From: an uncultured Bacilli bacterium
GTDB taxonomy: Bacteria > Bacillota_I > Bacilli_A > RF39 > UBA660
NCBI GenBank assembly: GCA_947629325.1
Contig: CANRDE010000010.1
Span: 1-35,203, forward strand
Length of the DNA: 35,203 bases
Reading direction: 5' to 3'
The number at the start of each line of letters is the position of its first letter. The first letter of the stretch is position 1. The notes under the pieces are model-generated. The model saw only the letters and a list, made by a program, of their open reading frames with translations, was not told the DNA's origin and did not search any database. This document shows positions 69 through 35,203 of this stretch, piece after piece. A program made the position numbers and the translations under genes.

Positions 69-97
69 TTGAGCTTTATTAAATTTTGTGGTATTAT
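69..97 (+). promoter_or_regulatory. Candidate promoter of left-edge RNA
   Basis: A -35 TTGAGC at 69-74 and a -10 TATTAT at 92-97 are separated by exactly 17 bases, with transcription expected from about 104. It has the same -10 and spacer as the antitoxin promoter at 221-249. Nothing downstream before the terminator at 214-240 is a convincing gene, so it would drive a short untranslated RNA or the leader of a decayed gene. Confidence 0.4.
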
Positions 98-103
98 GTA
101 TAC

Positions 104-240
104 AGCGATTGATATTATATATATCAAGTTAAATGTTATTGAGAAAAGTTGTAGATTACTACGTTATTCGCACCAGATAGATACCAAACTCGGACTTCCG
201 AGTAGAAATAGAGAACGTACTTGATAAAAGTACGTTTTTA
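104..240 (+). ncRNA. Candidate structured small RNA, or 3' remnant of a first cassette
   Basis: From the predicted start near 104 to the terminator T-run there are four separate hairpins: TTGATAT/ATATCAA (109-127), GTAG/CTAC (151-162), ACTCGGA/TCCGAGT (188-203) and the terminator stem (214-236). The only reading frames are tiny; the longest starting on ATG is 133-180, 15 residues with no ribosome site. The last about 70 bases are repeated at 809-877, where they follow a decayed gene. The stretch may therefore be the tail of another degraded cassette rather than a dedicated RNA gene. I do not recognise the RNA family. Confidence 0.33.
214..240 (+). terminator. Intrinsic terminator whose loop carries the next -35 box
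   Basis: AACGTACTT at 214-222 pairs perfectly with AAGTACGTT at 228-236 and is followed by a T-run. The -35 hexamer TTGATA of the antitoxin promoter (221-226) lies across the end of the left arm and the loop. Transcription from the left is therefore stopped exactly where the next unit is started. Confidence 0.6.
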
Positions 241-249
241 TGTTATTAT
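221..249 (+). promoter_or_regulatory. Promoter of antitoxin RNA 1
   Basis: TTGATA (221-226), 17-base spacer, TATTAT (244-249); start expected near 256-258. The matching positions of copy 2 read TTGAAA, 17, TACTAT. Both hexamers and the spacing are thus kept while the surrounding sequence has changed. There is no LexA-like box here, so this promoter is expected to be constitutive. Confidence 0.55.
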
Positions 250-256
250 GTATTTG

Positions 257-370
257 TCAAAGGAATTTGCATAAAATAAAAAAGGAACATTCAATATGCT
301 AATGTTGAGTGTTGCCAAAAGATTGGTTTTCACCTAATTCAAAGCAGTTGAGTTGGGTGATTTTCTTTTT
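257..370 (+). ncRNA. Antisense RNA antitoxin 1 (type I)
   Basis: Predicted about 114-nt untranslated RNA. It has a 12-bp 5' hairpin (286-297 with 302-313, including G-U pairs), a small CCAA/TTGG hairpin, and a 12-bp terminator stem (331-342 with 348-359). The stems pair fully only on the plus strand; read as minus-strand RNA they have C-A mismatches, which favours plus-strand transcription. It is nested in the 3' untranslated part of the minus-strand peptide mRNA and reaches its stop codon. Its segment TCACCTAATT (330-339) is a near-direct repeat of TCACCCAACT in the mRNA leader (486-495). It can therefore also pair, with two wobbles, with the 5' leader of its target. This is the par(pAD1)-like two-site arrangement. 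Inferred, no expression evidence. Confidence 0.5.
331..370 (+). terminator. Terminator of antitoxin RNA 1
   Basis: Stem CACCTAATTCAA (331-342) with TTGAGTTGGGTG (348-359), 12 pairs including two or three G-U wobbles, then ATTTTCTTTTT. It overlaps the stop codon of the opposing peptide gene. Confidence 0.6.
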
Positions 371-452
371 ATATTAAAACTATAAATAGTAATAATACTA
401 ATAGTAAGATAAGAATTACTAAAGATAGAATAAAAAAATCCTTCTTGTTCAT
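369..452 (-). CDS. Small hydrophobic peptide, predicted type I toxin (27 aa)
   Basis: Starts ATG at 452 and stops TAA at 369-371. The N-terminus is MNKKDFF; residues 6-27 are almost only Ile, Leu, Val and Phe, long enough for one membrane helix. The ribosome site GGGAGG (460-465) is strong and 7 bases from the start. A short CUUC/GAAG hairpin directly before the ribosome site could damp translation, as the leader hairpin of Fst does. An antisense RNA overlaps its 3' end. Copy 2 (993-1082) encodes a peptide of the same size and design with different residues, which argues for selection at the protein level. Type I toxins of this build (Ibs, TisB, Fst) insert in the membrane and depolarise or halt the cell. 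I do not see close sequence identity to a named family, so toxicity is inferred. Confidence 0.6.
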   Translation of the reverse strand: MNKKDFFILSLVILILLLVLLLFIVLI

Positions 453-514
453 GCTATCGCCTCCCTTCTTTATGAAGTTTGGCAATCACCCAACTATTAA
501 ATGTTCCTAAAACA

Positions 515-543
515 ATTATATAGAACATTTGTTCATGGCACAA
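515..543 (-). promoter_or_regulatory. Promoter of peptide gene 1
   Basis: On the minus strand, TTGTGC (538-543), a 17-base spacer and a perfect TATAAT (515-520); start near 508, giving a leader of about 55 bases. A LexA-like inverted repeat fills the spacer, so repressor binding would block RNA polymerase. Confidence 0.65.
523..534. promoter_or_regulatory. LexA/DinR-like SOS box 1
   Basis: GAAC-ATTT-GTTC on the plus strand, GAAC-AAAT-GTTC on the minus strand. It fits the Bacillus LexA (DinR) consensus GAAC-RNRY-GTTY. It sits inside the spacer of the minus-strand peptide promoter, and its TTGTTC half is the -35 of a divergent plus-strand promoter (529-557). One repressor could therefore hold both directions off until DNA damage. 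The equivalent box in copy 2 is kept. Confidence 0.6.
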
Positions 544-557
544 TACTTTTATATTAA
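529..557 (+). promoter_or_regulatory. Divergent promoter towards decayed gene
   Basis: TTGTTC (529-534, part of the LexA-like box), 17-base spacer, TATTAA (552-557). The same elements at the same spacing precede the intact gene in copy 2. Confidence 0.4.
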
Positions 558-599
558 ATTTTTCTGATTTAGAAAACACACTTGCATATTGTCGTTCAA

Positions 600-7173: not shown

Positions 7174-9021
7174 TTATTTAGTATTTAAATATTTTTTTAA
7201 TACTCTTTCTAGTTCTTTTTTATCAATTGGTTTGGAAATATAATCATTAAATCCTTCTTTTAAATAATTTTCTTTCATTCCGGCTATGGCATTAGCTGTT
7301 AAGGCAATAACTGGAATGTTAAATCCTTCCATCTTTTGTAACTTTTTAAAGGTCTCTACTCCGCTCATTTTAGGCATCATATCGTCCATTAATATTAAAT
7401 CGTATTTTTGCCCTAATTCAATTTTTTGTAAACATTCAAATCCACTTGCTACTTCTTCAGTTTCTAATTTATAGGTTGATAACAATCTAGCAGCTACTTT
7501 TAAATTAATTAAATTATCATCTACTATTAATACTTTTTTACCTTTAATATTCATTTTTTTGGTTTCATCTTTTGGTTCTATTTTAGCCTCTTTTACTTTA
7601 GTAACAATTCTTTGATCTATTCCTACTGTAAAAGTCGAACCTTTACCATAGACTGAATCAACAACTATTTTTCCACCCATTAAATCAACTAATTTTTTGG
7701 TAATAGCAAGCCCTAAACCGGTTCCTTCAATAGTCATATTTTTTTCAATTTCAAATCTTTCAAATTTAGTAAATAATCTATCTAAATCTTCTTTTTTTAT
7801 TCCTATACCGCTATCTTTTACACTTACAATTAAACGACAAATATTGTCTTTTTTTACCGAATTAACATTAAATTCAATAAAACCTTTTTTAGTATATTTA
7901 ACCGCATTAGTAAGCAAATTTAAAATGATTTGTTTAATTCTTACATAATCGCCATTTAAATAATCAGGTAAATCTTTATCTATTGATACTTTTAATTCTA
8001 AAGGTCTTTCTCCGATTCTTGCTTTTGTTAATTTAACCAATTCATCAAATATTTTGCGAGGTTCATACTCTACTTTGACAATTTCTAATTTATTAGCTTC
8101 AATTTTAGAAATATCTAAAATACCATTAACTATTTCTAATAAATTTTGGGAAGCCATCATAATATCTCGGGCTTCATCTTTTATAATCTTGATATCTTCT
8201 TCTTCTAAAATAAGTTGGCTAAAGCCATCAATTGCATTTAATGGGGTTCTAATTTCATGACTCATATTTGATAAGAACTCCGTTTTGGCATTATTAGCTT
8301 TTTCGGCTTGGTTCTTCGCAATATTTAATTGTTCAACTAATTTAATGTCAGGATTTTCAATAGTATGGTACATTATAAAGGTAACAAGAGTCATTGGTAA
8401 AGTAAATAGTAAAAGTTTAAAGCCAGCCATACTTAAAATCATTTCTATTAATATTAGGACTACAAAAGTAATTAAAGGTTTAAATTTAGTTCTTTCAATA
8501 TTTTTTTTCTTAGTTACAATGATTATAACGTTTAGTAATATTAAGATTATAGAAACCATGAACATAAATATCATAGAAGGGCCGTTTGATGAAATTAAAA
8601 CATTCCCCTCAAAACTATGTTTAATTGGTAATACAAATATGAAAAAAGCGATAAATAATATACTTAATAGAACAAAGGATTTTTTTATTTTAAAATTAAT
8701 TTTATTTAATTTGGAATTATCTTCTTGGGCAATTACTATCATATAAATCGTATGAAAATACATCCAAATACAATTAAATGTAAAGTATAATTTTTCGGTA
8801 AAACTAATAATATATAAAGAATTGCCTGCAAATCCGGAAAAATAAAACAGTATTTCTGATAATAAGCAAAAAACATTACTAAGAATTAAAGCGTCGTAAA
8901 CACTATTTTCTTTAGTATAAATTCTTTTTTTAGAAAAATACAATGATGCTAAAATACCGGAAAATAAAAAGCACACAATACTTACCGTAATTGAAATATA
9001 TTTTAAAGTTTCTACACTCAT
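7174..9021 (-). CDS. 7-TM hybrid sensor histidine kinase
   Basis: The start is ATG at 9021, after AGGTGG; ATG at 9039 has no ribosome site. Residues 1-220 hold about seven membrane helices with only short loops, so the stimulus is probably sensed within or at the membrane. A short coiled segment follows. The HisKA domain carries phospho-His255 in [11 protein letters not shown]. The HATPase domain has the N box ([11 protein letters not shown]), DSGIGI and GTGLGLAI. After a charged linker comes a C-terminal receiver with VDD and phospho-Asp546 ([12 protein letters not shown]), then KPID. It is the first gene of a three-gene relay with the HPt and CheY-like proteins, which lie 36 and about 390 bases further on. 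The ligand is unknown. Confidence 0.93.
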
Positions 9022-24647: not shown

Positions 24648-25691
24648 CTATAAAGAAAAGTTAGAATTAAGGCTTTTTAAGTATTCATCAAAAGATTTTT
24701 TAGTTGTATCACTAAAATTTGTTTTAAACCTATTAAACTCCTTATCCCAAGATTTATAAAATTCGTCATACCGATGATCAGGAAGGTGATATTGTTCTTT
24801 TAAATATTTACCAAAATAAAGTGTATATTTTGTTGCTCCATAAACATTTAGATGTGCTGAATCACAAAAATCAGTTTTATAATCTATTTTGAAATTTTTT
24901 AAAGTATTGAAATTTATAATTTTTAATTTATTTGCTTCAATAATGGATATAACATCATTCATTAACATATTAAGTTTTTCATTATAATATCTATTAGGTA
25001 TAACAAATACTACATTTAATTTTTGTTCTTTTATATAATCAATTAACTCAGTTAATTCCTTACTCATATCTTTTGGCAAATTACTTCTTTTATTTAACCA
25101 TTTGTAACTTTCTTGAGAAATTACTTGGGCAGTTGTTAAAGTTAAATTAAATCCTTTATATAAATCAGAATCTCCTACAAAATTTTTAGATTTTATCGTT
25201 TTCCAATTATTATGATATAAGAAAAAACTAAAATAATAATTTATATAATCTTGCTTGGTAACATTTTTATATTTTAAAAACTTATCGATTACATCCTTTC
25301 TATTTAAAGAAAATTTCATGGAATCCATTGTTAGTCTTCCCATTTCCAATTCTATATCTTTTACATCAATTGCAATCATTCCAACATCAATAATATAAAC
25401 TTTAGGCCTTTGATATTTTTCTGATTCTTTTATTAAATTCTTAATCATTGAAAATGGTTGGGATCCAGCAGTTAACATGACCGTTGTAAAACCATATTCA
25501 TTGTAAGCTAAGACAGTATTAAAATGATCATAAACATTACTGGGACCTAAATATACTACATCAAGAGAATTTTTTGGCTCTTTATAAAATAAAGAAATAG
25601 GCGTAAAAACTCCCCATAATATTCTTGAAACACCATTAAATAAAATTACAAAAATAATAATAAATAGTAATGGCTTAATTAACTTTTTCAC
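24648..25691 (-). CDS. SGNH-type membrane-anchored protein, paralogue 1 (DltD/AlgX-like)
   Basis: An N-terminal membrane anchor (about 4-22) and an extracytoplasmic SGNH-like fold. The nucleophile motif is LGPSNVYDHFN (Ser51) and the C-terminal motif is DSAHLNVYGATKY (Asp277, His280), so a Ser-Asp-His set seems complete. In MBOAT systems such proteins finish transfer of the acyl group onto the polymer or select the acceptor. It is clearly paralogous to the protein at 30684-31706, sharing FYKEPKNSLD and FGKYLKE/LGKYLKE stretches. It lies after the UbiA-like gene and is part of the minus-strand run. Confidence 0.8.
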   Translation of the reverse strand: MKKLIKPLLFIIIFVILFNGVSRILWGVFTPISLFYKEPKNSLDVVYLGPSNVYDHFNTVLAYNEYGFTTVMLTAGSQPFSMIKNLIKESEKYQRPKVYIIDVGMIAIDVKDIELEMGRLTMDSMKFSLNRKDVIDKFLKYKNVTKQDYINYYFSFFLYHNNWKTIKSKNFVGDSDLYKGFNLTLTTAQVISQESYKWLNKRSNLPKDMSKELTELIDYIKEQKLNVVFVIPNRYYNEKLNMLMNDVISIIEANKLKIINFNTLKNFKIDYKTDFCDSAHLNVYGATKYTLYFGKYLKEQYHLPDHRYDEFYKSWDKEFNRFKTNFSDTTKKSFDEYLKSLNSNFSL

Positions 25692-25719: not shown

Positions 25720-26577
25720 TTAAGACAAATAAATTAACCCCATTAAAATTAATCCATAAATAAAAATCATACCTAATAATATTTTATCGGATGTTACCAC
25801 ATCAACAGGATCACCAAAACTATCATTTTCTACTATCATACAGTATTTTAACATAATCAAAATCACTAAAGGAATTGTCCATATTAAATATTTGCTAGTT
25901 GTAGTAATATCAATTGTCCATAATGAATAAAAAACAACTGATATAGCTAAACACATGTACATACTTTTATCCAAAAAACTTTCATTATAATAATTAAGAA
26001 CTTTCCTGGATTTATTTCCACTTTTAATAAATTCATTTCTTCTCTTACCAAAACCAAGATAAAAAGCGAGTGACATAACAGTTAAATAAAGCCAACTTGA
26101 AATTTCTACATTAATAATACTTCCACCATACAATACTCTAATAATAAAGCCAAGAGCTAATATAGCTACATCTAATAAAGGTATATCTTTTAAACCAAAA
26201 CTATATAATATATTAATAACTATATATACTAGTATATATAGATAACTCATATGAGTTATCTTACAAACAGCTAAAAATTGAAATAAAAGAGATAAAGAAA
26301 ATAATATTATTGCAAAAACGATTGCATTTTTTATTTCTATTTTACCAGATGCTAAGGGCCTATTTTTTTTAATTGGGTGTTTTTTATCCTTATCCTTATC
26401 TTTAATATCATTTACTATGTACACTACAGAAGTAGCCAAAGAAAATGCTATAAAAGCATAGATACTTTTAATTAAGTAAGGCATATTAAATAAATTGCCA
26501 CTTAAAATTATTGGAAAAAAGATTAAAAAATTTTTCACATAATGTTTTATACGCATTAATTTAATATAATTAATCAT
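25720..26577 (-). CDS. UbiA-family decaprenyl-phosphate phosphoribosyltransferase-like enzyme
   Basis: Integral membrane prenyltransferase with 8 or 9 helices. The first Asp motif VNDIKDKDKDKKHPIKKNRP (about 55-74), followed by LASG, closely follows the NDxxDxxxDxxHPxKxxRPxAxG pattern of mycobacterial DPPR synthase. That enzyme moves phosphoribose from PRPP onto a polyprenyl phosphate. GFIIRVLYGG also fits that branch. ATG at 26577 has AAAGG nine bases upstream; it overlaps the gtrA stop. With the neighbouring GtrA and GT-C proteins it suggests a lipid-linked pentose used outside the cell. The phosphatase and epimerase of the arabinose pathway are not seen here. Confidence 0.8.
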   Translation of the reverse strand: MINYIKLMRIKHYVKNFLIFFPIILSGNLFNMPYLIKSIYAFIAFSLATSVVYIVNDIKDKDKDKKHPIKKNRPLASGKIEIKNAIVFAIILFSLSLLFQFLAVCKITHMSYLYILVYIVINILYSFGLKDIPLLDVAILALGFIIRVLYGGSIINVEISSWLYLTVMSLAFYLGFGKRRNEFIKSGNKSRKVLNYYNESFLDKSMYMCLAISVVFYSLWTIDITTTSKYLIWTIPLVILIMLKYCMIVENDSFGDPVDVVTSDKILLGMIFIYGLILMGLIYLS

Positions 26578-26977
26578 TTTTATCATCCTTTACTTGAATT
26601 ATTAATTTACTTATTGGATAAGAAACTGCTAAAAATAATAATGTTAATCCTATTTTACTAATATAAACATTTAAATTAAAGATATCAACTAGAACATACA
26701 AACATACTGTATCCATTAATAATAAAACTAATTTCATTGCAAAAAATTGTATTAATTTTTTTAGATGTTCCTTATTACTTACGTTATTAGCTTTAAAAGT
26801 ATATTTTGAATTCATAAAATATGAAATTATAACTGCTATAGAATATGATACTATATTAGATATTATATAGTTAATTTTTAAACATTCTATAAAAAAAGTA
26901 AATAATAAGAAATTTAATATTGTCATAAGACCTCCAACAAAGGAAAATCTTATAAATTCAATAATTCTTTCTTTCAT
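26570..26977 (-). CDS. GtrA-family flippase-like membrane protein
   Basis: A 135-residue protein with four membrane helices and the GtrA pattern FxxVGGLMTxLNF near the start and FMNSKYTF in the middle. Such proteins help polyprenyl-linked sugars cross the membrane. ATG at 26977 overlaps the stop of the glycosyltransferase before it (TAATG), so translation is coupled. It sits between a GT2 enzyme and the DPPR-synthase-like enzyme, whose product is a likely cargo. Confidence 0.88.
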   Translation of the reverse strand: MKERIIEFIRFSFVGGLMTILNFLLFTFFIECLKINYIISNIVSYSIAVIISYFMNSKYTFKANNVSNKEHLKKLIQFFAMKLVLLLMDTVCLYVLVDIFNLNVYISKIGLTLLFLAVSYPISKLIIQVKDDKND

Positions 26978-27963
26978 TATAAATTCGGCCAAAACCTTTC
27001 TAGATTAATATTACTATAAATTTTGAAGAATAACCAATCTAAATGAATTTTTCTTAAAATTAAAATATTAAATAAAATGAGTTTAACTATAATTCTTTCA
27101 CCTTTGAATTTTAAATTTTTAATTTTGCTATATTCAGGGAACTCTTTTTCCAAAAAATTAAAAGCTTTATTATATTCTTTTTTCATTGCATCAGTTTTAA
27201 CATTACAACCGCTTTTTAATAAATGCCAACACATGCATTTATAAGCATAATAACATAAAAGAATACTCATTCCTCTTTTTTGTTTTAATTTAATAAGATA
27301 GTCAAAAACTATATCTAAAGCTTCAGGATTAAATTTCTTTAATGAAGTATGTGTTACTGATTTTTTATTTTCTACATAATAATAACCTGCACATGCTTCA
27401 TAAGAATAAGTGGGATTAGCTAATACTGTACTAAAATGAAATAATACATCATCTAGAACAGGACCATTAGGTAAATATAAATTATTTTTATTAATAAAAT
27501 CTCTTTTTATTAATTTTCCCCAAGAAGTTATTTTTTGTTTTAGAGCTATATCCTTATTTTTATATTTTCTAATATACTTTACATTACCTTTATCGTCTAT
27601 TTTTGTAAAATCACTTAAAACTAAATCAGGAAAATTATTTTCTTTTGCGCTATCATACAATTTTTCAATAAAATCTTGAGATATATAGTCATCGCAATCA
27701 ACAAATAAAATATAATCACCCGTAGCATACTTTATTCCTTCGTTTTTAGCACCACCTGGGCCAAAATTTCTTTTAGCATTATAAACTTTTATCCTTTTAT
27801 CTTGTTTTTTTAACTCTTTAAGGATGTCTGCTGTATTATCTTTAGAACAATCATTAAAAAATATTATTTCTAAGTTTTTATACGTTTGTTTTTTTAAAGA
27901 CCTATATACTTTTTTGATAAATTTTTCTCCATTATAAACTGGAACAATTACTGTAATTAACAT
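26977..27963 (-). CDS. GT2 family glycosyltransferase
   Basis: Cytosolic GT-A type enzyme. The N-terminus is VIVPVYNGEKFI, followed by IIFFNDCSKDNT, NFGPGGAKNEGI and LFVDCDDYIS (the DxD-type metal site). The C-terminal part is helical and basic, likely at the membrane surface. The start follows AAAGGAG. It would add a sugar from a nucleotide donor during repeat-unit or polymer assembly; donor and acceptor cannot be told. It lies four bases after the GT-C gene and is coupled to gtrA. Confidence 0.9.
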   Translation of the reverse strand: MLITVIVPVYNGEKFIKKVYRSLKKQTYKNLEIIFFNDCSKDNTADILKELKKQDKRIKVYNAKRNFGPGGAKNEGIKYATGDYILFVDCDDYISQDFIEKLYDSAKENNFPDLVLSDFTKIDDKGNVKYIRKYKNKDIALKQKITSWGKLIKRDFINKNNLYLPNGPVLDDVLFHFSTVLANPTYSYEACAGYYYVENKKSVTHTSLKKFNPEALDIVFDYLIKLKQKRGMSILLCYYAYKCMCWHLLKSGCNVKTDAMKKEYNKAFNFLEKEFPEYSKIKNLKFKGERIIVKLILFNILILRKIHLDWLFFKIYSNINLERFWPNL

Positions 27964-27966
27964 AAT

Positions 27967-29508
27967 TTACTTCTCCTTTTTCTTTGCAAAAATTAACTTT
28001 ATTAAATCAACTATACAATATATTCCAATAGCACAAGCAATAGATAATTGCGGAAAAATAATAGCTTTATATCTTGGTTGAACTCCTCCCAATACTAAAA
28101 TAGCTATATAGCCTACTAACATTAATAAAATTATTGATAATTCTTTTTTATGTTCACTTTTAAAAATAAATATTATGCACAAAATACTAATCATAAAATA
28201 GATAAATGCCATAAATGTATTGGCAATAAGCAAATAATCATCATAATCGTTGAGATTATTTAAAACTTTTTGAGGGTTATTACTGGTGTTAGCCCAATTA
28301 AAGAATGCAGCATCATCATCTAAAGCTATTCTAAATTTTTGATACCATATTTTAGGAAGATAACGAACATTACTTTTTATTGTTTTCTTAGCTATTTTAT
28401 CTAAATCCTCAAATACTAATTTTAAATTTCCTGAATATTTGTCATATAATTTTGAATAAATATCAGAATATATATATTCGGGATCATAATCTCCTTTATC
28501 ATTTACGGAATATCCCCATATTAAATAAGAACTAGATGAATTTACAGTTTCAGTTTTTATATAATTTTGAATTGACTTATTTAAAACATAATTAGTGGTT
28601 AAATAAATACCAATAAAAATTAAAATAAAATAACTAATATATCTCCAACTATTTTTAAAATATGTTTTTAAATTTTTAAGATTATCCATAAATTCAACTA
28701 ATATTTCGCTAGCAATAAAAACAAGTAACATATAAATTGCAATTGGTTTAAATAAATTAATTAAACACATTGATATCACTAAAGGAATTGTTAAAATATA
28801 TTTTTGTCTTATATTTTTGTTTTTTAAAACAAAACTCCATATAAAAATTACTAATGAAACAAGAAAAATAGTAAAATGATCTGGTGTTGAAACGTTAGTA
28901 TATGCTATAAGCGATGGCATAGTACTGAAAATTAGAAGTGTTAATAACCCTATTTTATTATTAAACATCCTTTTAATTCCAATATAAAGAAATATAAATG
29001 TTAATGAAAATAATATTAAATTACATACTTTAAAATAACTAGGATGACTTCCAAAAATATCTAATATTTTATAATTTATAAAATCATATGTAAACCAAGA
29101 TGGATATTGAGCAAAATAAATTTGATAATGATTATCTTTTAATTTATTTTCATGATATATAAATTTGTTTCCTTCTAGTTTATATTGATATAAATCTATT
29201 CCTTTAGCAAAATCGCTTGTTTGAGAAGTATCAAAATAATTAATAGAATAAATCCTTAAAGTCAATCCTATTATAAATAATATTATGATAATTATTAATT
29301 CTTTTACTTTACTCAATTTTATTTTTTTTAAGATATAACCAATTCCAATAAAAATAATAGAAATTATCATGAAAGAAAAAGCAATATAGGTAAATGGTTT
29401 AGTATTATTTAATTTTATTAAAGTACATCCAAAAGCTGCTAGAAATACCAAACTAGTTGCTATTAGAAAAATAGTAAATAGCCAGTTATTTTTTATTTTT
29501 TTTGTCAT
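27967..29508 (-). CDS. GT-C type membrane glycosyltransferase (PMT/ArnT-like)
   Basis: A 513-residue protein with about 11-12 membrane helices. The first outer loop has FDTSQTSDFAKGIDLY, an acidic motif typical of GT-C enzymes that use polyprenyl-phosphate sugars. A large outer loop lies at about 310-425. ATG at 29508 follows AAAAGGTGA; a longer start at 29532 lies within wecB. It probably moves a sugar from a lipid carrier to an extracellular acceptor. The DPPR-synthase-like and GtrA proteins nearby could supply that carrier. Confidence 0.8.
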   Translation of the reverse strand: MTKKIKNNWLFTIFLIATSLVFLAAFGCTLIKLNNTKPFTYIAFSFMIISIIFIGIGYILKKIKLSKVKELIIIIILFIIGLTLRIYSINYFDTSQTSDFAKGIDLYQYKLEGNKFIYHENKLKDNHYQIYFAQYPSWFTYDFINYKILDIFGSHPSYFKVCNLILFSLTFIFLYIGIKRMFNNKIGLLTLLIFSTMPSLIAYTNVSTPDHFTIFLVSLVIFIWSFVLKNKNIRQKYILTIPLVISMCLINLFKPIAIYMLLVFIASEILVEFMDNLKNLKTYFKNSWRYISYFILIFIGIYLTTNYVLNKSIQNYIKTETVNSSSSYLIWGYSVNDKGDYDPEYIYSDIYSKLYDKYSGNLKLVFEDLDKIAKKTIKSNVRYLPKIWYQKFRIALDDDAAFFNWANTSNNPQKVLNNLNDYDDYLLIANTFMAFIYFMISILCIIFIFKSEHKKELSIILLMLVGYIAILVLGGVQPRYKAIIFPQLSIACAIGIYCIVDLIKLIFAKKKEK

Positions 29509-29512
29509 AATA

Positions 29513-30625
29513 TCACCTTTTAAATTTTTCAATTATGGCATCTACTATTCTTTCACTAGCATGACCATCACCATACGGATTAGATGCTTTACTCATTTTA
29601 TCATACGCTTCTTTATCAGTTAATAACTTTTTAGCCTCCTCATAAATTGTATTTTCATCAGTTCCAACTAACTTTAAAGTACCAGCATCAATTCCTTCTG
29701 GTCTTTCAGTAGTATCTCTTAACACTAATACTGGTTTACCTAATGATGGAGCCTCTTCTTGGATACCACCAGAATCACTTAAAATTAAATAGGATTTATT
29801 TTGAAAATTATGAAAATCAAATACTTCTAAAGGTTCAATTAATTTAACACGATCACAATTTTCAAATATTTCATTAGCAACTTCTCTTACTTTTGGATTT
29901 AAATGAATTGGATAAATAACTTTAACTTTAGGAAATTCATCTACTATTTTTCTAATAGCTTTAAAAATATGGCGCATTGGTTCTCCCAAATTTTCTCTTC
30001 GATGAGCTGTTAATAATATTAACTTTTCATCGTCCTTAATCCAGTCTAATTCTGGATTTTTATAATCATTACTAATCGTTGTACTCATGGCATCAATAGC
30101 TGTATTACCCGTAACATATATTTTGCTTTCTTCAATATTTTCTTTTAGCAAATTTTCTTTACTTAAATTAGTTGGAGCAAAATACATATCTGTCATACAA
30201 TCAACCATTTGGCGATTCATTTCTTCCGGATACGGACTATATTTATCATTAGTTCTAAGCCCTGCTTCAACATGGCCAATAGCTACTTGATTATAAAAAG
30301 CTGCTAAAGCCCCGGCAAAAGTTGTAGTTGTATCACCATGAACTAAAACAATGTTTGGTTGACATTCTTTAATCACTTTTTCTAACCCGCTTAAAGCTCT
30401 TGTAGTTATATCTCCTAAAGTTTGACCTTGTTTCATAATATTTAAATCATAATCTGGTTTAATATGAAAAGTATCTAAAACTTGATCAAGCATTTCTCTA
30501 TGTTGCGCTGTAACACAAACTATACTTTCTATTTCTTCTCTTTTCTCTAGTTCTTTAACTAAAGGAGCCATTTTAATTGCTTCTGGTCTTGTTCCAAAAA
30601 TACTCATTACTTTAATTTTTTGCAT
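29513..30625 (-). CDS. wecB: UDP-N-acetylglucosamine 2-epimerase (non-hydrolysing)
   Basis: Converts UDP-GlcNAc to UDP-ManNAc, used for teichoic acid linkage units and capsules. Motifs: FGTRPEAIKMAP at the start, VHGDTTTTFAGA, GHVEAGLRT, PYPEEMNRQ, LTAHRREN and SDSGGIQEEAP. Length 370 is standard. The gene stops with TGA, which shows that TGA is not read as Trp in this organism. AGAGAGG precedes the ATG. A 58-base gap separates it from the SGNH gene upstream. Confidence 0.95.
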   Translation of the reverse strand: MQKIKVMSIFGTRPEAIKMAPLVKELEKREEIESIVCVTAQHREMLDQVLDTFHIKPDYDLNIMKQGQTLGDITTRALSGLEKVIKECQPNIVLVHGDTTTTFAGALAAFYNQVAIGHVEAGLRTNDKYSPYPEEMNRQMVDCMTDMYFAPTNLSKENLLKENIEESKIYVTGNTAIDAMSTTISNDYKNPELDWIKDDEKLILLTAHRRENLGEPMRHIFKAIRKIVDEFPKVKVIYPIHLNPKVREVANEIFENCDRVKLIEPLEVFDFHNFQNKSYLILSDSGGIQEEAPSLGKPVLVLRDTTERPEGIDAGTLKLVGTDENTIYEEAKKLLTDKEAYDKMSKASNPYGDGHASERIVDAIIEKFKR

Positions 30626-30683: not shown

Positions 30684-31706
30684 CTACTTTTTTTCTATCA
30701 AAGATTCGAAACCTGTTCCTATAATCTTTCTATATTCTTCTTTAAATCTTTCATATTCCTTTTCCCAAGAACTATAATAATACCCCCCCCGATTATCAGG
30801 AAGATTATAATTTTCTTTTAAATATTTTCCCAAATAAGTTGTAAATTTTGTTGCTCCATATACATTCAAATGAGCATGATTGTAATAATCATGAGAATAA
30901 TCAATTCCTAAATCAATCTTGTTAAAATTTAAAACTTCATAATTATTATTTTCACAAATTTCTACAATTGTATTCAATTTTTGCATAACATCTTCACTAT
31001 ACAATTTTGGAGATACAATAAACAAAACATTTAATTTTTCCTTATTTATATAATCTATTAGTTCGTTAAATTCTTTATTAACATCTTCTGCTAAAGGTGC
31101 TGTTCCTTTAATCCAAGGGACCTTTTTTTGAGGATCAATTCCAGAAGTATATTCATTATAATAATATCCTTTAAATAAGTCGGAACGTGTAAACTTATAT
31201 TCATTTATATTTTTATATGAACTATGATAGGTCAAAAAACTAAAATAATAATTAATATGTTCTTCTTTTGGAATATTAAACATTTCTAAATATTCTTTAA
31301 CTGCTTCGAATCTATTTGTAGATGGCTTAATTGAATCTACTACCCTTCTTATAGCACCCTCTTCTGGATATATAACTGTAGTATTAGAAATGTCAATTAC
31401 ATAAACTTTGGGTTTCTGTCTCTTTTGAGCTTCTTTGATTAAATGCTTTACAGAAATAAATTGCTGAGCATCAGTAGACAGCATTCCAGTCGTAAAACCA
31501 TATTCATGAAAAGCTAATACAGTATTAAAATGAGCATAAGCATTACTGCCACCAAAATATGCTATATCTAAAGAATTTTTGGGTTCTTTATAAAAATAAG
31601 TAACTGAATTTTTAGTTATTCCTAATATCGAAAAAACCCCATTCCATATTTGACAAAAAATTATTAAGAATAGACTTATTTTAATTAAATTTTTTAAGTA
31701 CTTCAT
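30684..31706 (-). CDS. SGNH-type membrane-anchored protein, paralogue 2, altered triad
   Basis: Paralogue of the protein at 24648-25691 with an N-terminal anchor, FGGSNAYAHFN (Ser54) and a C-terminal NHAHLNVYGATKF. At the place of Asp277 of paralogue 1 this protein has Asn276, while the His (279) is kept. A nearby Asp273 is present in both. The change may make it inactive as a hydrolase or transferase, or the nearby Asp may take over. It starts two bases after the MBOAT gene, so it is the direct partner of that enzyme, as DltD is of DltB. Confidence 0.8.
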   Translation of the reverse strand: MKYLKNLIKISLFLIIFCQIWNGVFSILGITKNSVTYFYKEPKNSLDIAYFGGSNAYAHFNTVLAFHEYGFTTGMLSTDAQQFISVKHLIKEAQKRQKPKVYVIDISNTTVIYPEEGAIRRVVDSIKPSTNRFEAVKEYLEMFNIPKEEHINYYFSFLTYHSSYKNINEYKFTRSDLFKGYYYNEYTSGIDPQKKVPWIKGTAPLAEDVNKEFNELIDYINKEKLNVLFIVSPKLYSEDVMQKLNTIVEICENNNYEVLNFNKIDLGIDYSHDYYNHAHLNVYGATKFTTYLGKYLKENYNLPDNRGGYYYSSWEKEYERFKEEYRKIIGTGFESLIEKK

Positions 31707-31708
31707 AA

Positions 31709-33238
31709 TTAAAAGCCTCTATAAATAAATGTCGCTGGATCATAGCCTGGCCCATACATTCCAAAAATTATTACAGAAAAAATAAGTAAATAAATTATTG
31801 CCCATCTAAAAACTATATTTTGTCTAAATAATTTATCCAATACATTTTCTTTTCTTTGCATTCCTTCAACTATAAACATTGCAATTAAAGATATAATTAA
31901 TACTCTAAAATCTAATAAATCTAAACCAGCAGTATAAAGTGATGAATTGTCAACTAATACCCAAGGATTATAGACAAAAATATGTTTTATTATATCAATC
32001 GCATTACCAACAGATGTCGCTCTAAAAAATATCATTGAAAATGAGAATAATATAAATGTTCTTATGCATTGATATAATTTATAACTAAATGCTTCCGTAT
32101 TAATTCCTATTTTTTTATTAATATTTTGTGATAACGGTCCAAATAAATCTTCTAAAAATATAAAGAAAAATTGCAATAAACCAGAACCAATTATATAAGT
32201 ATAGGCCCCGCCATGCCAAATTCCTATTAATATCCACATTATTAACATAGATAAATATAAAGTTATTTTTTTACTTACTTTTTTACCAAATATCTTTTTG
32301 AAAAAATTACCAATTTTTTGAATAAAATTAGATTTCATTAAAGGGTAAAATATATAATCTTTAAGCCATGCTCCTAATGTAATATGCCAATTACGCCAAA
32401 ATTCAGTTATTGTCCTAGAAAAAAATGGACTTGTAAAGTTTTCTGGTAATTCTATACCCATAATTTTAGAAATTCCCATAATTATATCAATAGATCCTGA
32501 AAAATTAGTATACAATTGTAAAGTAAAGAATATGGTAGCAATTATAATATATGTTCCATTAAAAGTACTTATATCACCATACACAGTATTTACGAATATA
32601 GCTAATCTTTGCGAAATTACTAATATCTTAAATAAACCCCAAAAAATTCTAATTAATCCTCGACATAAATTATCATAATTTAGTTTATGTTTTGTATATA
32701 ATTCCTTTTCCATTTTATCATATCTTATAAATGGCCCAGACGTTAAAATAGGAAAATAAGACATAAATAAAGCACATTTTAAAATATTCTTTTGGGGGTT
32801 ACATATTTTTCTATAAACATCGACAATATAACCAATCATGATTAATGAATAATATGAAAGCCCTACCGGTGAAGAAAAACTAACCATATTGAATTGTTTA
32901 TTAATATGGAATAAATTATTAAAATGGTTAGCAGAAACAATAAATAAATTGCTATATTTTAAAATTAAGAGTTCACCTAATATTATTATTATTGATAACA
33001 CCAAAAAAATTTTGGATTTTTTAGTATTCTCATATTTGTGAACCAGTAATGCGCCAAAATACGCGGATAATAAAATAATAAGCACATAAATAACATTATT
33101 GACAGTTAAAGCATTATAAAATAAAAACGTTAAGCTTGATGCTAGTAGTACTATCCATTGTAATTTTTTGGGAATTACAAAATAAATGATTAAGGTGATT
33201 ATTGAAAAAGTTAAAAATATTAAAGATGTTAAAACCAT
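31709..33238 (-). CDS. MBOAT-family O-acyltransferase (DltB/AlgI/PatA-like)
   Basis: A 509-residue protein with about 11 membrane helices. EFWRNWHITLGAWLKDYIFYP (residues 279-299) and GIWHGGAYTYI with the catalytic His342 are the family marks. Such enzymes take an acyl group from a carrier protein inside and pass it through the membrane to a surface polymer. The start follows GGGAG and lies three bases after the VOC gene. The neighbouring ACP and FkbH-like genes suggest that the acyl group is a glyceryl or related three-carbon unit. Confidence 0.92.
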   Translation of the reverse strand: MVLTSLIFLTFSIITLIIYFVIPKKLQWIVLLASSLTFLFYNALTVNNVIYVLIILLSAYFGALLVHKYENTKKSKIFLVLSIIIILGELLILKYSNLFIVSANHFNNLFHINKQFNMVSFSSPVGLSYYSLIMIGYIVDVYRKICNPQKNILKCALFMSYFPILTSGPFIRYDKMEKELYTKHKLNYDNLCRGLIRIFWGLFKILVISQRLAIFVNTVYGDISTFNGTYIIIATIFFTLQLYTNFSGSIDIIMGISKIMGIELPENFTSPFFSRTITEFWRNWHITLGAWLKDYIFYPLMKSNFIQKIGNFFKKIFGKKVSKKITLYLSMLIMWILIGIWHGGAYTYIIGSGLLQFFFIFLEDLFGPLSQNINKKIGINTEAFSYKLYQCIRTFILFSFSMIFFRATSVGNAIDIIKHIFVYNPWVLVDNSSLYTAGLDLLDFRVLIISLIAMFIVEGMQRKENVLDKLFRQNIVFRWAIIYLLIFSVIIFGMYGPGYDPATFIYRGF

Positions 33239-33241
33239 AAA

Positions 33242-33625
33242 TTATGCTCCCTTCTCAACTAATTCAATTAATCCTAAATCCCACATTAAAAATGCGACTT
33301 TTTTATTTTCAAATAAAATTGCCTTTTTAGGTTCTCTAACTAAAAAAGCCCCATCATTTTGTAATTTAGATATAGTCAACTCTATATCATCTACTTCGTA
33401 ACAAGTGTGATATAAATATTGTCTTTTCTTTAAAATGTTTTCTACGACTTTGCCAGTAATAAGTTCAATTTTAATACCGTCATCTAAAGTTAACATACAT
33501 AAATAAGCGTCTTGATTAGAATCATAAACAATATCACTTATATCTTTAATTTTTAAAAAGTTTTCTAATTTAGCAATCATTTTTTCTATATCATCGGTTG
33601 CAATCCCAATATGATGAAATTTCAT
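33242..33625 (-). CDS. VOC-family (glyoxalase / methylmalonyl-CoA epimerase-like) protein
   Basis: A 127-residue protein with two beta-alpha-beta-beta-beta units. Candidate metal ligands are seen at FHHIG (N-terminus), IKIELITG, LYHTCYEV and GLIELVE, which is the H-E-H-E set of the family. ATG at 33625 follows GAGGTG; the GTG at 33634 overlaps the ribosome site. Lying between ACP and MBOAT genes, it may change the stereochemistry or oxidation of the carrier-bound acyl unit. That is inference; the substrate is unknown. Confidence 0.75.
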   Translation of the reverse strand: MKFHHIGIATDDIEKMIAKLENFLKIKDISDIVYDSNQDAYLCMLTLDDGIKIELITGKVVENILKKRQYLYHTCYEVDDIELTISKLQNDGAFLVREPKKAILFENKKVAFLMWDLGLIELVEKGA

Positions 33626-33659
33626 ATTATACACCTCTTATAATTTGATTATAACAAGG

Positions 33660-33683
33660 AAAAATAACTATTGCTAGTTATTT
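33660..33683 (-). terminator. Weak terminator between ACP and VOC genes
   Basis: On the minus strand, AAATAACTA and TAGTTATTT (33662-33670 with 33675-33683) with a GCAA-type loop, followed by five Ts. A TATAAT follows before the VOC ribosome site, so there may be partial stop and restart here. Confidence 0.4.
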
Positions 33684-33920
33684 TACTCTATTTTCAATAA
33701 TATCGGCCATTTCACCAACATTCTTCATTGTTGTAACTTCACCCATATTGAATTTAATACCAAATTCTTGTTCAACTGCTACGATTAAATTAATATGTTC
33801 AAGTGAATCCCAATCTTCTATATCATTTGATGTTGTTGCATCAGTTACTACTATGCTTTCATCATCAAATACATCTCTAAAAACGTTATTAAGTCTTTCA
33901 AATATTTCTTTTCTTTCCAT
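33678..33920 (-). CDS. Acyl carrier protein
   Basis: An 80-residue acidic helical protein with the phosphopantetheine site DWDSLEHI (Ser near residue 39). Its start overlaps the FkbH-like stop (TAATG), so the two are made together. In this pair the ACP would carry the glyceryl group formed by FkbH and present it to the MBOAT enzyme, the role DltC has in D-alanylation. No fatty-acid genes are nearby, which supports a dedicated role. Confidence 0.92.
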   Translation of the reverse strand: MERKEIFERLNNVFRDVFDDESIVVTDATTSNDIEDWDSLEHINLIVAVEQEFGIKFNMGEVTTMKNVGEMADIIENRVK

Positions 33921-35203
33921 TATCTTTCCACCTCTATTACATTATTTTTATTTTTATAACCATCTACATTTAATTTGTAGGTTTTATTACCTTTCTCATC
34001 TTCACTTTCTAAAGTAAAGCCTTGTAAATCATAAAATTCTTTAACCATTTTATTTTTTAAGGTTGGATAATAATATCCATATATAGTCTCAATATTGGCC
34101 TCTTTGGCTTTTCTAACCAATTCATCCATCATGGCAAATTCCATATTACGTTTTAAAACTCGGCAGCTCATTATCCATAAATCAATATGTAATTCTTTAC
34201 CTTTAATATGGCCAATCACCACCGAAATAACCCCATTATCCCCAAATATATCTTCAAGCTTACCATAAATTTTAATATACTCATCACTATTAGCTACTTT
34301 TTCAATATCAGCTAAGCTATATCTTTTGGTAGTTAAATTAAATTGATTGCTTTTATTTGATAATTGACTTATTCTTTCTAAATAAATAGGTTTAAATGAA
34401 CTAATTTCCGCATGCATTTTTAAACTTTTTAAATAATCGTCATAATTGTCAAAAGTACTCATCATTTGACTTCTTTTAGCATTATCTTTATATAATTCAT
34501 TTTTCTTTAAATCTTCTTTAGAAAAATTAGTCATTTCAAAATAACCATTATGATCAATTATTCTAATATAATTTTCTGGAGTATCAATTTCTGGTATACC
34601 AATACCTTCAACTGTTGATTCTACAATATGTCTTTCAGCGGGATTATCATCAACAAAAACAAATGAATCTGCTCCTAAATTAAGTTCTTCAGCAATATCT
34701 TTCATATTCATATTTTTAGGATTCCAATTAGCTTTAATAATGATAAAATCTTCTGGTTTTAAAACTCCGGCTGGATGATTTAAACCAGCTATAGCATTCT
34801 CATATTCATTTTTCGAATTAACATTTAATATAATACCTAAATTTTTATGTTCTTTTAAATAATTTTGAAATTCTTCATAAACTTGCCCACTTGGAACTTC
34901 TGGCCCGATTGCTAAATTTTCAACACCATCATCGCCAACAATTCCACCCCATAAAGTATTATCTAAATCTAAAACAAAAGCTTTTTTATTTTTACCATAA
35001 ATAGATTTAATAATATTAGCCAAATTAAAAGCTAAATAAGGGATTGCGGGTACTTCTAAAGCATATTTATACATGTGCCAATAAAATTGATTGCTCCATT
35101 TATCTAATCCATAACAACTTGATAAATAATTAATATCATTAATAAAGAAATTATTATGATTATTAGCATATTCATATATTTTATTATTTAATCTATTAAT
35201 ATA
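33920..35203 (-). CDS. FkbH-like HAD-IIIC protein (partial, runs off the right edge)
   Basis: The frame stays open to the window edge, so the N-terminus is missing. The upstream codons read on through SSCYGLDKWSNQFYWHMYKY, a typical FkbH stretch, so the Met at 35074 is internal. The HAD motif is AFVLDLDNTLWGG, followed by FVDDNPAER. The C-terminal part is a GNAT-like domain (ISQLSNKSNQFNLTTKRY, then IDLWIMSCRVLKR). FkbH enzymes take 1,3-bisphosphoglycerate and load a glyceryl group on an ACP with loss of phosphate. It is coupled to the ACP gene that follows. Confidence 0.92.
   Translation of the reverse strand, partial: YINRLNNKIYEYANNHNNFFINDINYLSSCYGLDKWSNQFYWHMYKYALEVPAIPYLAFNLANIIKSIYGKNKKAFVLDLDNTLWGGIVGDDGVENLAIGPEVPSGQVYEEFQNYLKEHKNLGIILNVNSKNEYENAIAGLNHPAGVLKPEDFIIIKANWNPKNMNMKDIAEELNLGADSFVFVDDNPAERHIVESTVEGIGIPEIDTPENYIRIIDHNGYFEMTNFSKEDLKKNELYKDNAKRSQMMSTFDNYDDYLKSLKMHAEISSFKPIYLERISQLSNKSNQFNLTTKRYSLADIEKVANSDEYIKIYGKLEDIFGDNGVISVVIGHIKGKELHIDLWIMSCRVLKRNMEFAMMDELVRKAKEANIETIYGYYYPTLKNKMVKEFYDLQGFTLESEDEKGNKTYKLNVDGYKNKNNVIEVER

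Follow-up and report, generated by a model that had tools for sequence, protein, structure and literature searches.

The window analysed here is the whole 35,203-nucleotide (nt) stretch of contig CANRDE010000010.1 (hereafter C10) of an uncultured Bacilli bacterium (RF39; UBA660; assembly GCA_947629325.1), whose assembly comprises 884 kb in 34 contigs and is 82% complete, with a G+C content of 26%. At its end, the minus strand carries a five-gene operon, considered here as a candidate cassette for surface acylation, which encodes an FkbH-like glyceryl transferase/phosphatase (33920-35203; the 3' 427 codons, cut by the window end), an acyl carrier protein (ACP; 33678-33920) with its phosphopantetheine site at Ser39, a VOC (Glyoxalase_4) protein (33242-33625, with an alternative GTG start at 33634), an MBOAT acyltransferase with the C-terminal sequence FIYRGF (31709-33238), and a predicted SGNH-like membrane-anchored transferase with Ser54 and His279 (30684-31706). 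All five genes were found in the order given in a preliminary description of this DNA, and most of their products were matched to known families. The tight packing reported there was also borne out, with intergenic gaps of -1, 52, 3, and 2 nt, but the overlap of coding ends was restricted to FkbH and ACP (1 nt). A purine-rich stretch was present upstream of every start in the operon, and a promoter scan of the locus scored below the shuffled mean and was uninformative. Contig C2 (L006:1-77) opens with an exact copy of the window's final 77 bases (35127-35203) and probably adjoins C10, a 77-bp overlap of this kind being typical of a k-mer assembly graph. The N-terminal part of FkbH, with the first ~170 codons, lies on C2 (L006 positions 78-581, minus strand), and the protein read across the joint has about 595 amino acids.

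For the loading of the carrier, the FkbH-like protein matched TIGR01686 (E 1.4e-77; 261 bits against a cut-off of 147) as well as the FkbH_N family PF21211. Both the HAD pair Asp243/Asp245 and Cys511, the latter presumably the acyl-enzyme site as reported for OzmB, were invariant in 18 homologs, as expected of an FkbH glyceryl transferase. The ACP scored over the PF00550 cut-off, its Ser39 was present in 91 of 91 aligned homologs, and it was the sole match in a search of the genome for PP-binding proteins, like the dedicated carrier of the Dlt system. Moreover, the genome harbors PGK, and 1,3-bisphosphoglycerate is therefore expected in the cell.

The MBOAT protein, the sole match in an MBOAT search of the genome, matched PF03062, while TIGR04091 stayed below its cut-off. 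Its His342 (taken as catalytic), Asn267, and Tyr506 were invariant in 35 homologs. The preliminary description had likened the gene set to the Dlt system, but membership of this MBOAT in the DltB family was rejected because it reached only 135 bits against the DltB model (cut-off 375); moreover, it has a PatA-type extension, with two hydrophobic segments, of about 100 residues past the C-terminus of DltB and ends in F504-I-Y506-R-G-F509, matching the FxYxxF acyl shuttle motif of PatA and DltX. The Tyr of this motif is autoacetylated in PatA, and DltX has the same motif for D-Ala (PMC12148441). No small open reading frame (ORF) that could represent DltX lies in the 2-nt gap between the MBOAT and SGNH-like genes; the MBOAT bears the motif itself, and a separate DltX is thus unneeded.

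A single hydrophobic segment lies near the N-terminus of the SGNH-like protein (residues 6-31), which has no Pfam match of its own, and a PDB profile search with its alignment returned nothing meaningful. Its relatives, in turn, gave weak matches to DltD (E 1.7e-4) and GDSL_2. The GxSN (Ser54) and HLN (His279) motifs were kept across homologs, save for two proteins (L042:4248-5255 and L049:8661-9683) in which Cys replaces the conserved Ser of GxSN. The minus strand also encodes, at 24648-25691, an SGNH-like paralog that shares 45% identity with this protein, and several related loci hold two to five copies. One cassette (L075:11027-18989) combines a single MBOAT with five SGNH-like genes, which suggests one exporter serving several position-specific transferases.

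The VOC protein matched PF13669 (E 3.5e-16), and its H8, E57, H76, and E124 (numbered from the GTG start) were invariant in 16 of 16 homologs and aligned with its nearest solved chains, the C. acetobutylicum glyoxalase 2qh0/3hdp. These residues are putative metal ligands, corresponding to the set of the glyoxalase I/methylmalonyl-CoA epimerase fold. Glyoxalase I, methylmalonyl-CoA epimerase, and similar VOC enzymes perform enediolate or enolate chemistry beside a thioester, and glyceryl-ACP is an alpha-hydroxyacyl thioester; as the most economical guess, the VOC protein would epimerise glyceryl-ACP at C2 from D to L. In the sample of the order, the slot between ACP and MBOAT held VOC (eight relatives plus the window), nothing, MaoC, or MaoC plus SDR, and this variability suggests that enzymes in the slot tailor the acyl unit. 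At least 20 changes of the tailoring label were needed on the FkbH tree (63 loci) and 19 on the MBOAT tree, in both cases fewer than with shuffled labels, indicating that related loci tend to share a tailoring set, with exchange still frequent. For example, L116 (VOC) and L139 (MaoC plus SDR) were close sisters on both trees. In the Alphaproteobacteria Niveispirillum and Maritalea, a single ORF next to FkbH encodes a fusion of the MaoC and SDR domains, which argues that both act jointly on the FkbH product; dehydration at C2-C3 by MaoC would yield a pyruvyl unit, and subsequent reduction by SDR a lactyl unit. A comparable conversion of glyceryl to lactyl has reportedly been proposed for bryostatin. 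In addition, genes for an aldo-keto reductase and a split transketolase-like enzyme (N and C parts) were joined to MaoC-type FkbH cassettes in L033:12768-15333, L085, L086, L089, and L110, where two-carbon extension of the carrier-bound unit is possible. In another locus (L023:2826-3207, equal to L045 region 7900-8320), the VOC gene is broken into two frames, through a sequencing error or through decay of the tailoring gene.

Across the order, FkbH was detected in 20 of 288 genomes, with ACP adjacent in every one and AcpS often divergent beside FkbH. After extension of the loci, MBOAT was found with FkbH-ACP in 19 of the 20 comparable loci, in most cases with one to three SGNH-like genes after it; the association is therefore not due to chance. 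A scan of GTDB genomes yielded 80 loci, a few of which lie on contigs already covered by the order sample; most came from uncultured Lachnospiraceae, Oscillospiraceae, and Bacilli, and the cultured carriers were Lachnospiraceae 28-4, Eisenbergiella tayi, Butyrivibrio XPD2002, and Gemmiger formicilis. Among the 53 loci of this wider scan with ample flanks, ACP was present in 50 and MBOAT in 40; these 40 comprised 23 without any of the tailoring genes looked for, six with VOC, and 11 with MaoC-containing sets, some of the last also with the transketolase-like pair and the aldo-keto reductase. A divergent FkbH (34% identity) and an ACP in L050:9116-16225, located next to an AMP-binding enzyme, a UDP-glycosyltransferase-like protein, and sulfatase-fold proteins, look like a different FkbH system.

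Furthermore, a plasmid search recovered alphaproteobacterial FkbH proteins of about 32% identity, and in Alphaproteobacteria the set of FkbH, ACP, VOC, MBOAT, and SGNH-like genes occurs in a gene order different from that of the window. Sinorhizobium meliloti pSymB carries VOC, MBOAT (ending FLYQGF), a protein in the SGNH position annotated as a TonB receptor, ACP, and FkbH, with a capsular gene near, and S. meliloti strain 2011 shares this set. Rhodobacteraceae SC52 harbors ACP, FkbH, MBOAT (ending FIYFNF), a hypothetical protein, and VOC, and Tistrella harbors FkbH, ACP, and MBOAT (ending FIYAGF). The alphaproteobacterial proteins in the SGNH position had no Pfam match.

The order also contains an adenylation version of the cassette (L172:2457-7905, L173:320-6116, and L176:5769-11588), consisting of an AMP-binding enzyme, a pyridoxal phosphate-dependent enzyme of decarboxylase/racemase fold (similar to ornithine and diaminopimelate decarboxylases), ACP, MBOAT (ending PIYADF or PMYANF), and an SGNH-like protein, with AcpS adjoining in two of the three, suggesting another acyl unit that is probably amino-acid-derived. 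In the window's genome, no protein matched DltA (TIGR01734) over the cut-off, the best scores being 107 and 65 bits against 560. The preliminary view that FkbH stands in place of DltA holds only in part: three of the 20 FkbH genomes (G068, G223, and G235) also have a DltA-like enzyme, and together with the adenylation version this led us to reject a strict replacement; since both front ends occur in the order, FkbH is better seen as an alternative or parallel charging enzyme for the same kind of back end. Four other loci (L168, L169, L170, and L175) hold a DltA-like adenylation enzyme of 453-473 amino acids and a possible carrier of 75-78 amino acids, accompanied by a VanW-like protein (tested in L168), with no adjacent MBOAT.

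The surroundings of the operon are rich in genes for surface polymers. Downstream in the window, the minus strand encodes the UDP-GlcNAc 2-epimerase WecB/MnaA of a surface polymer locus (29513-30625; TIGR00236, 562 bits against a cut-off of 210), followed at 25720-29532 by a PMT_2-like membrane glycosyltransferase, a GT2 and a GtrA-like protein (both by sequence reading), and a UbiA-family protein near decaprenyl-phosphate phosphoribosyltransferases. On C2, a divergent AcpS (TIGR00516 over cut-off) adjoins FkbH, and further upstream there are a TarA-like protein and a TarF-like glycerophosphotransferase, both short of their cut-offs (201 against 350 bits and 162 against 550 bits, respectively), an LtaS-like sulfatase-fold protein (a weak match of 73 bits), an LCP ligase, glycosyltransferases, a flippase-like protein, and a TagO/WecA-like transferase. 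With wall-polymer genes on both sides, the locus thus looks like one for a teichoic-acid-like cell-wall glycopolymer, and the polymer made by these genes is probably the acceptor.

Taken together, we consider it quite probable that the operon is a carrier-fed MBOAT-SGNH surface acylation cassette, in which glyceryl-ACP is derived from 1,3-bisphosphoglycerate. The core idea of the preliminary description, an FkbH-charged ACP feeding an MBOAT-SGNH export transferase, is accordingly well supported by gene context, with the chemistry being inferred. In the proposed mechanism, AcpS would attach phosphopantetheine to Ser39 of the ACP, as in its family, and FkbH would take 1,3-bisphosphoglycerate from glycolysis, remove its phosphate, and transfer D-glyceryl onto the ACP, as predicted from the FkbH family. 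The VOC protein would then act on the alpha-hydroxyacyl thioester via a C2 enediolate and most likely convert D- to L-glyceryl, whereas other loci have nothing in this slot, or have MaoC or MaoC plus SDR, which would supply pyruvyl or lactyl units. By analogy with PatA and DltX, the MBOAT would move the acyl group across the membrane onto its own Tyr506 in FIYRGF, from which the SGNH-like protein is predicted to accept it and to esterify the extracellular polymer.

Several points weigh against this proposal. All parts and their conserved catalytic residues are present in the sequence, but the acyl chemistry and the acceptor are deduced from families and neighbours; FkbH could load a different acyl phosphate, and the VOC protein, whose nearest solved relatives are annotated as glyoxalase I, could use an aldehyde-derived substrate. 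The SGNH assignment concerns a putative fold, drawn from motifs and the weak matches of relatives. As a metagenome-assembled genome of 82% completeness was analysed, the absence of DltA, a fatty acid synthase (FAS), or a second ACP is provisional. Furthermore, MBOAT was missing nearby in 13 of the 53 flanked FkbH loci, and we know of no glycerate ester from these bacteria.

The missing MBOATs would also fit an explanation in which the MBOAT and SGNH-like proteins form an ordinary O-acetyltransferase fed by acetyl-CoA, the donor of the characterised PatA (PMC12148441), with FkbH, ACP, and VOC making a separate small molecule or a cytosolic acyl donor as mere neighbours; in Niveispirillum, indeed, FkbH-ACP adjoins a WcbI-type acetyltransferase instead. 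However, FkbH, ACP, and MBOAT are jointly conserved in Bacilli, Clostridia, and Alphaproteobacteria, the pairing of MBOAT and ACP recurs with the adenylation enzyme in the same order, and no ketoacyl synthase (KS) that could use the ACP was found in the genome, which together make such an arrangement improbable. The KS search also bears on the idea that glyceryl-ACP is channelled into polyketides, tetronates, or lipids, as in characterised FkbH systems. In the literature found, every FkbH enzyme with a described product belongs to polyketide synthase (PKS)/nonribosomal peptide synthetase or tetronate pathways (e.g., PMC7489565), and in Methylosinus and Pseudalkalibacillus FkbH lies in polyketide/tetronate-type clusters beside KS/FabH-like genes, without MBOAT. 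In the window's genome, by contrast, no KS was matched, only 3 of the 288 genomes of the order have one, and G068, a 93% complete genome of the same genus, harbors the cassette and likewise lacks it. Use of the ACP by PKS or FAS was rejected on this ground, and an upstream PKS using this ACP, which the preliminary description had named as evidence that would overturn its view, was not found on the joined contig C2, making this fate of glyceryl-ACP highly improbable.

A closer variant retains the export route, with unmodified D-glyceryl as the loaded unit; VOC would then play no part on the carrier and would be a detoxification enzyme of the glyoxalase type or a metal-binding accessory. The glyoxalase I annotation of the solved structures and the many loci without any tailoring gene are in its favour; against it, the VOC gene lies inside the operon between ACP and MBOAT, it recurs with the cassette in Alphaproteobacteria in other gene orders, and close relatives hold MaoC or MaoC plus SDR in the same slot, so that we regard this variant as possible but rather unlikely.

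Beyond the single locus, we hold with about even confidence that these cassettes form an unnamed, widespread class based on glycolytic glyceryl-ACP, in which VOC, MaoC, MaoC plus SDR, and transketolase-like pairs are swapped in to give different short hydroxy-acyl units such as L-glyceryl, pyruvyl, and lactyl, while a single MBOAT supplies one or more SGNH-like proteins. If so, surface ester chemistry could be varied by exchanging one or two genes, and the variable slot would allow testable predictions of the ester of each strain. While the donors described for MBOAT-SGNH systems are D-alanyl-DltC and acyl-CoA, the cassette would add a third, drawn from a glycolytic intermediate without ATP-dependent adenylation. 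Such cassettes occur commonly in gut Firmicutes, in which surface esters have been little studied, and the presence of the set in the genetically tractable S. meliloti 2011 opens the question to direct test. The surface polysaccharide gellan gum of Sphingomonas is known to bear ester-linked L-glycerate (PMC9104527), and a review of gellan records only one verified acetyltransferase (PMC4443731); the cassette could explain L-glycerate on such polymers and represents a candidate pathway for polysaccharide glycerate esters.

Our literature search on FkbH with MBOAT, teichoic acid, capsule, or HAD-IIIC found no such system described, subscription papers being outside the search. The cassette shares with the Dlt system (DltABCDX) a dedicated ACP, presumably activated by AcpS, an MBOAT exporter, a predicted SGNH-like transferase, and teichoic-acid-like genes nearby, but it has FkbH rather than DltA, an MBOAT below the DltB cut-off with the shuttle Tyr fused to it rather than in DltX, and tailoring enzymes predicted to act on the carrier-bound unit. 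Unlike the FkbH modules of polyketide pathways (methoxymalonyl-ACP, tetronates), it lacks KS, O-methyltransferase, and acyl-ACP dehydrogenases and would deliver its unit to MBOAT-SGNH. With the O-acetyltransferases of the PatA-PatB and AlgI/AlgX type, it has in common the C-terminal extension, FxYxxF, the invariant His, and a separate, putative membrane-anchored SGNH-like partner; however, MBOAT-SGNH pathways except Dlt are described as carrier-free and fed by acyl-CoA (PMC12148441), whereas the present operon holds an ACP and its charging enzyme. Thus, this locus joins a PatA-like MBOAT with a Dlt-like carrier.

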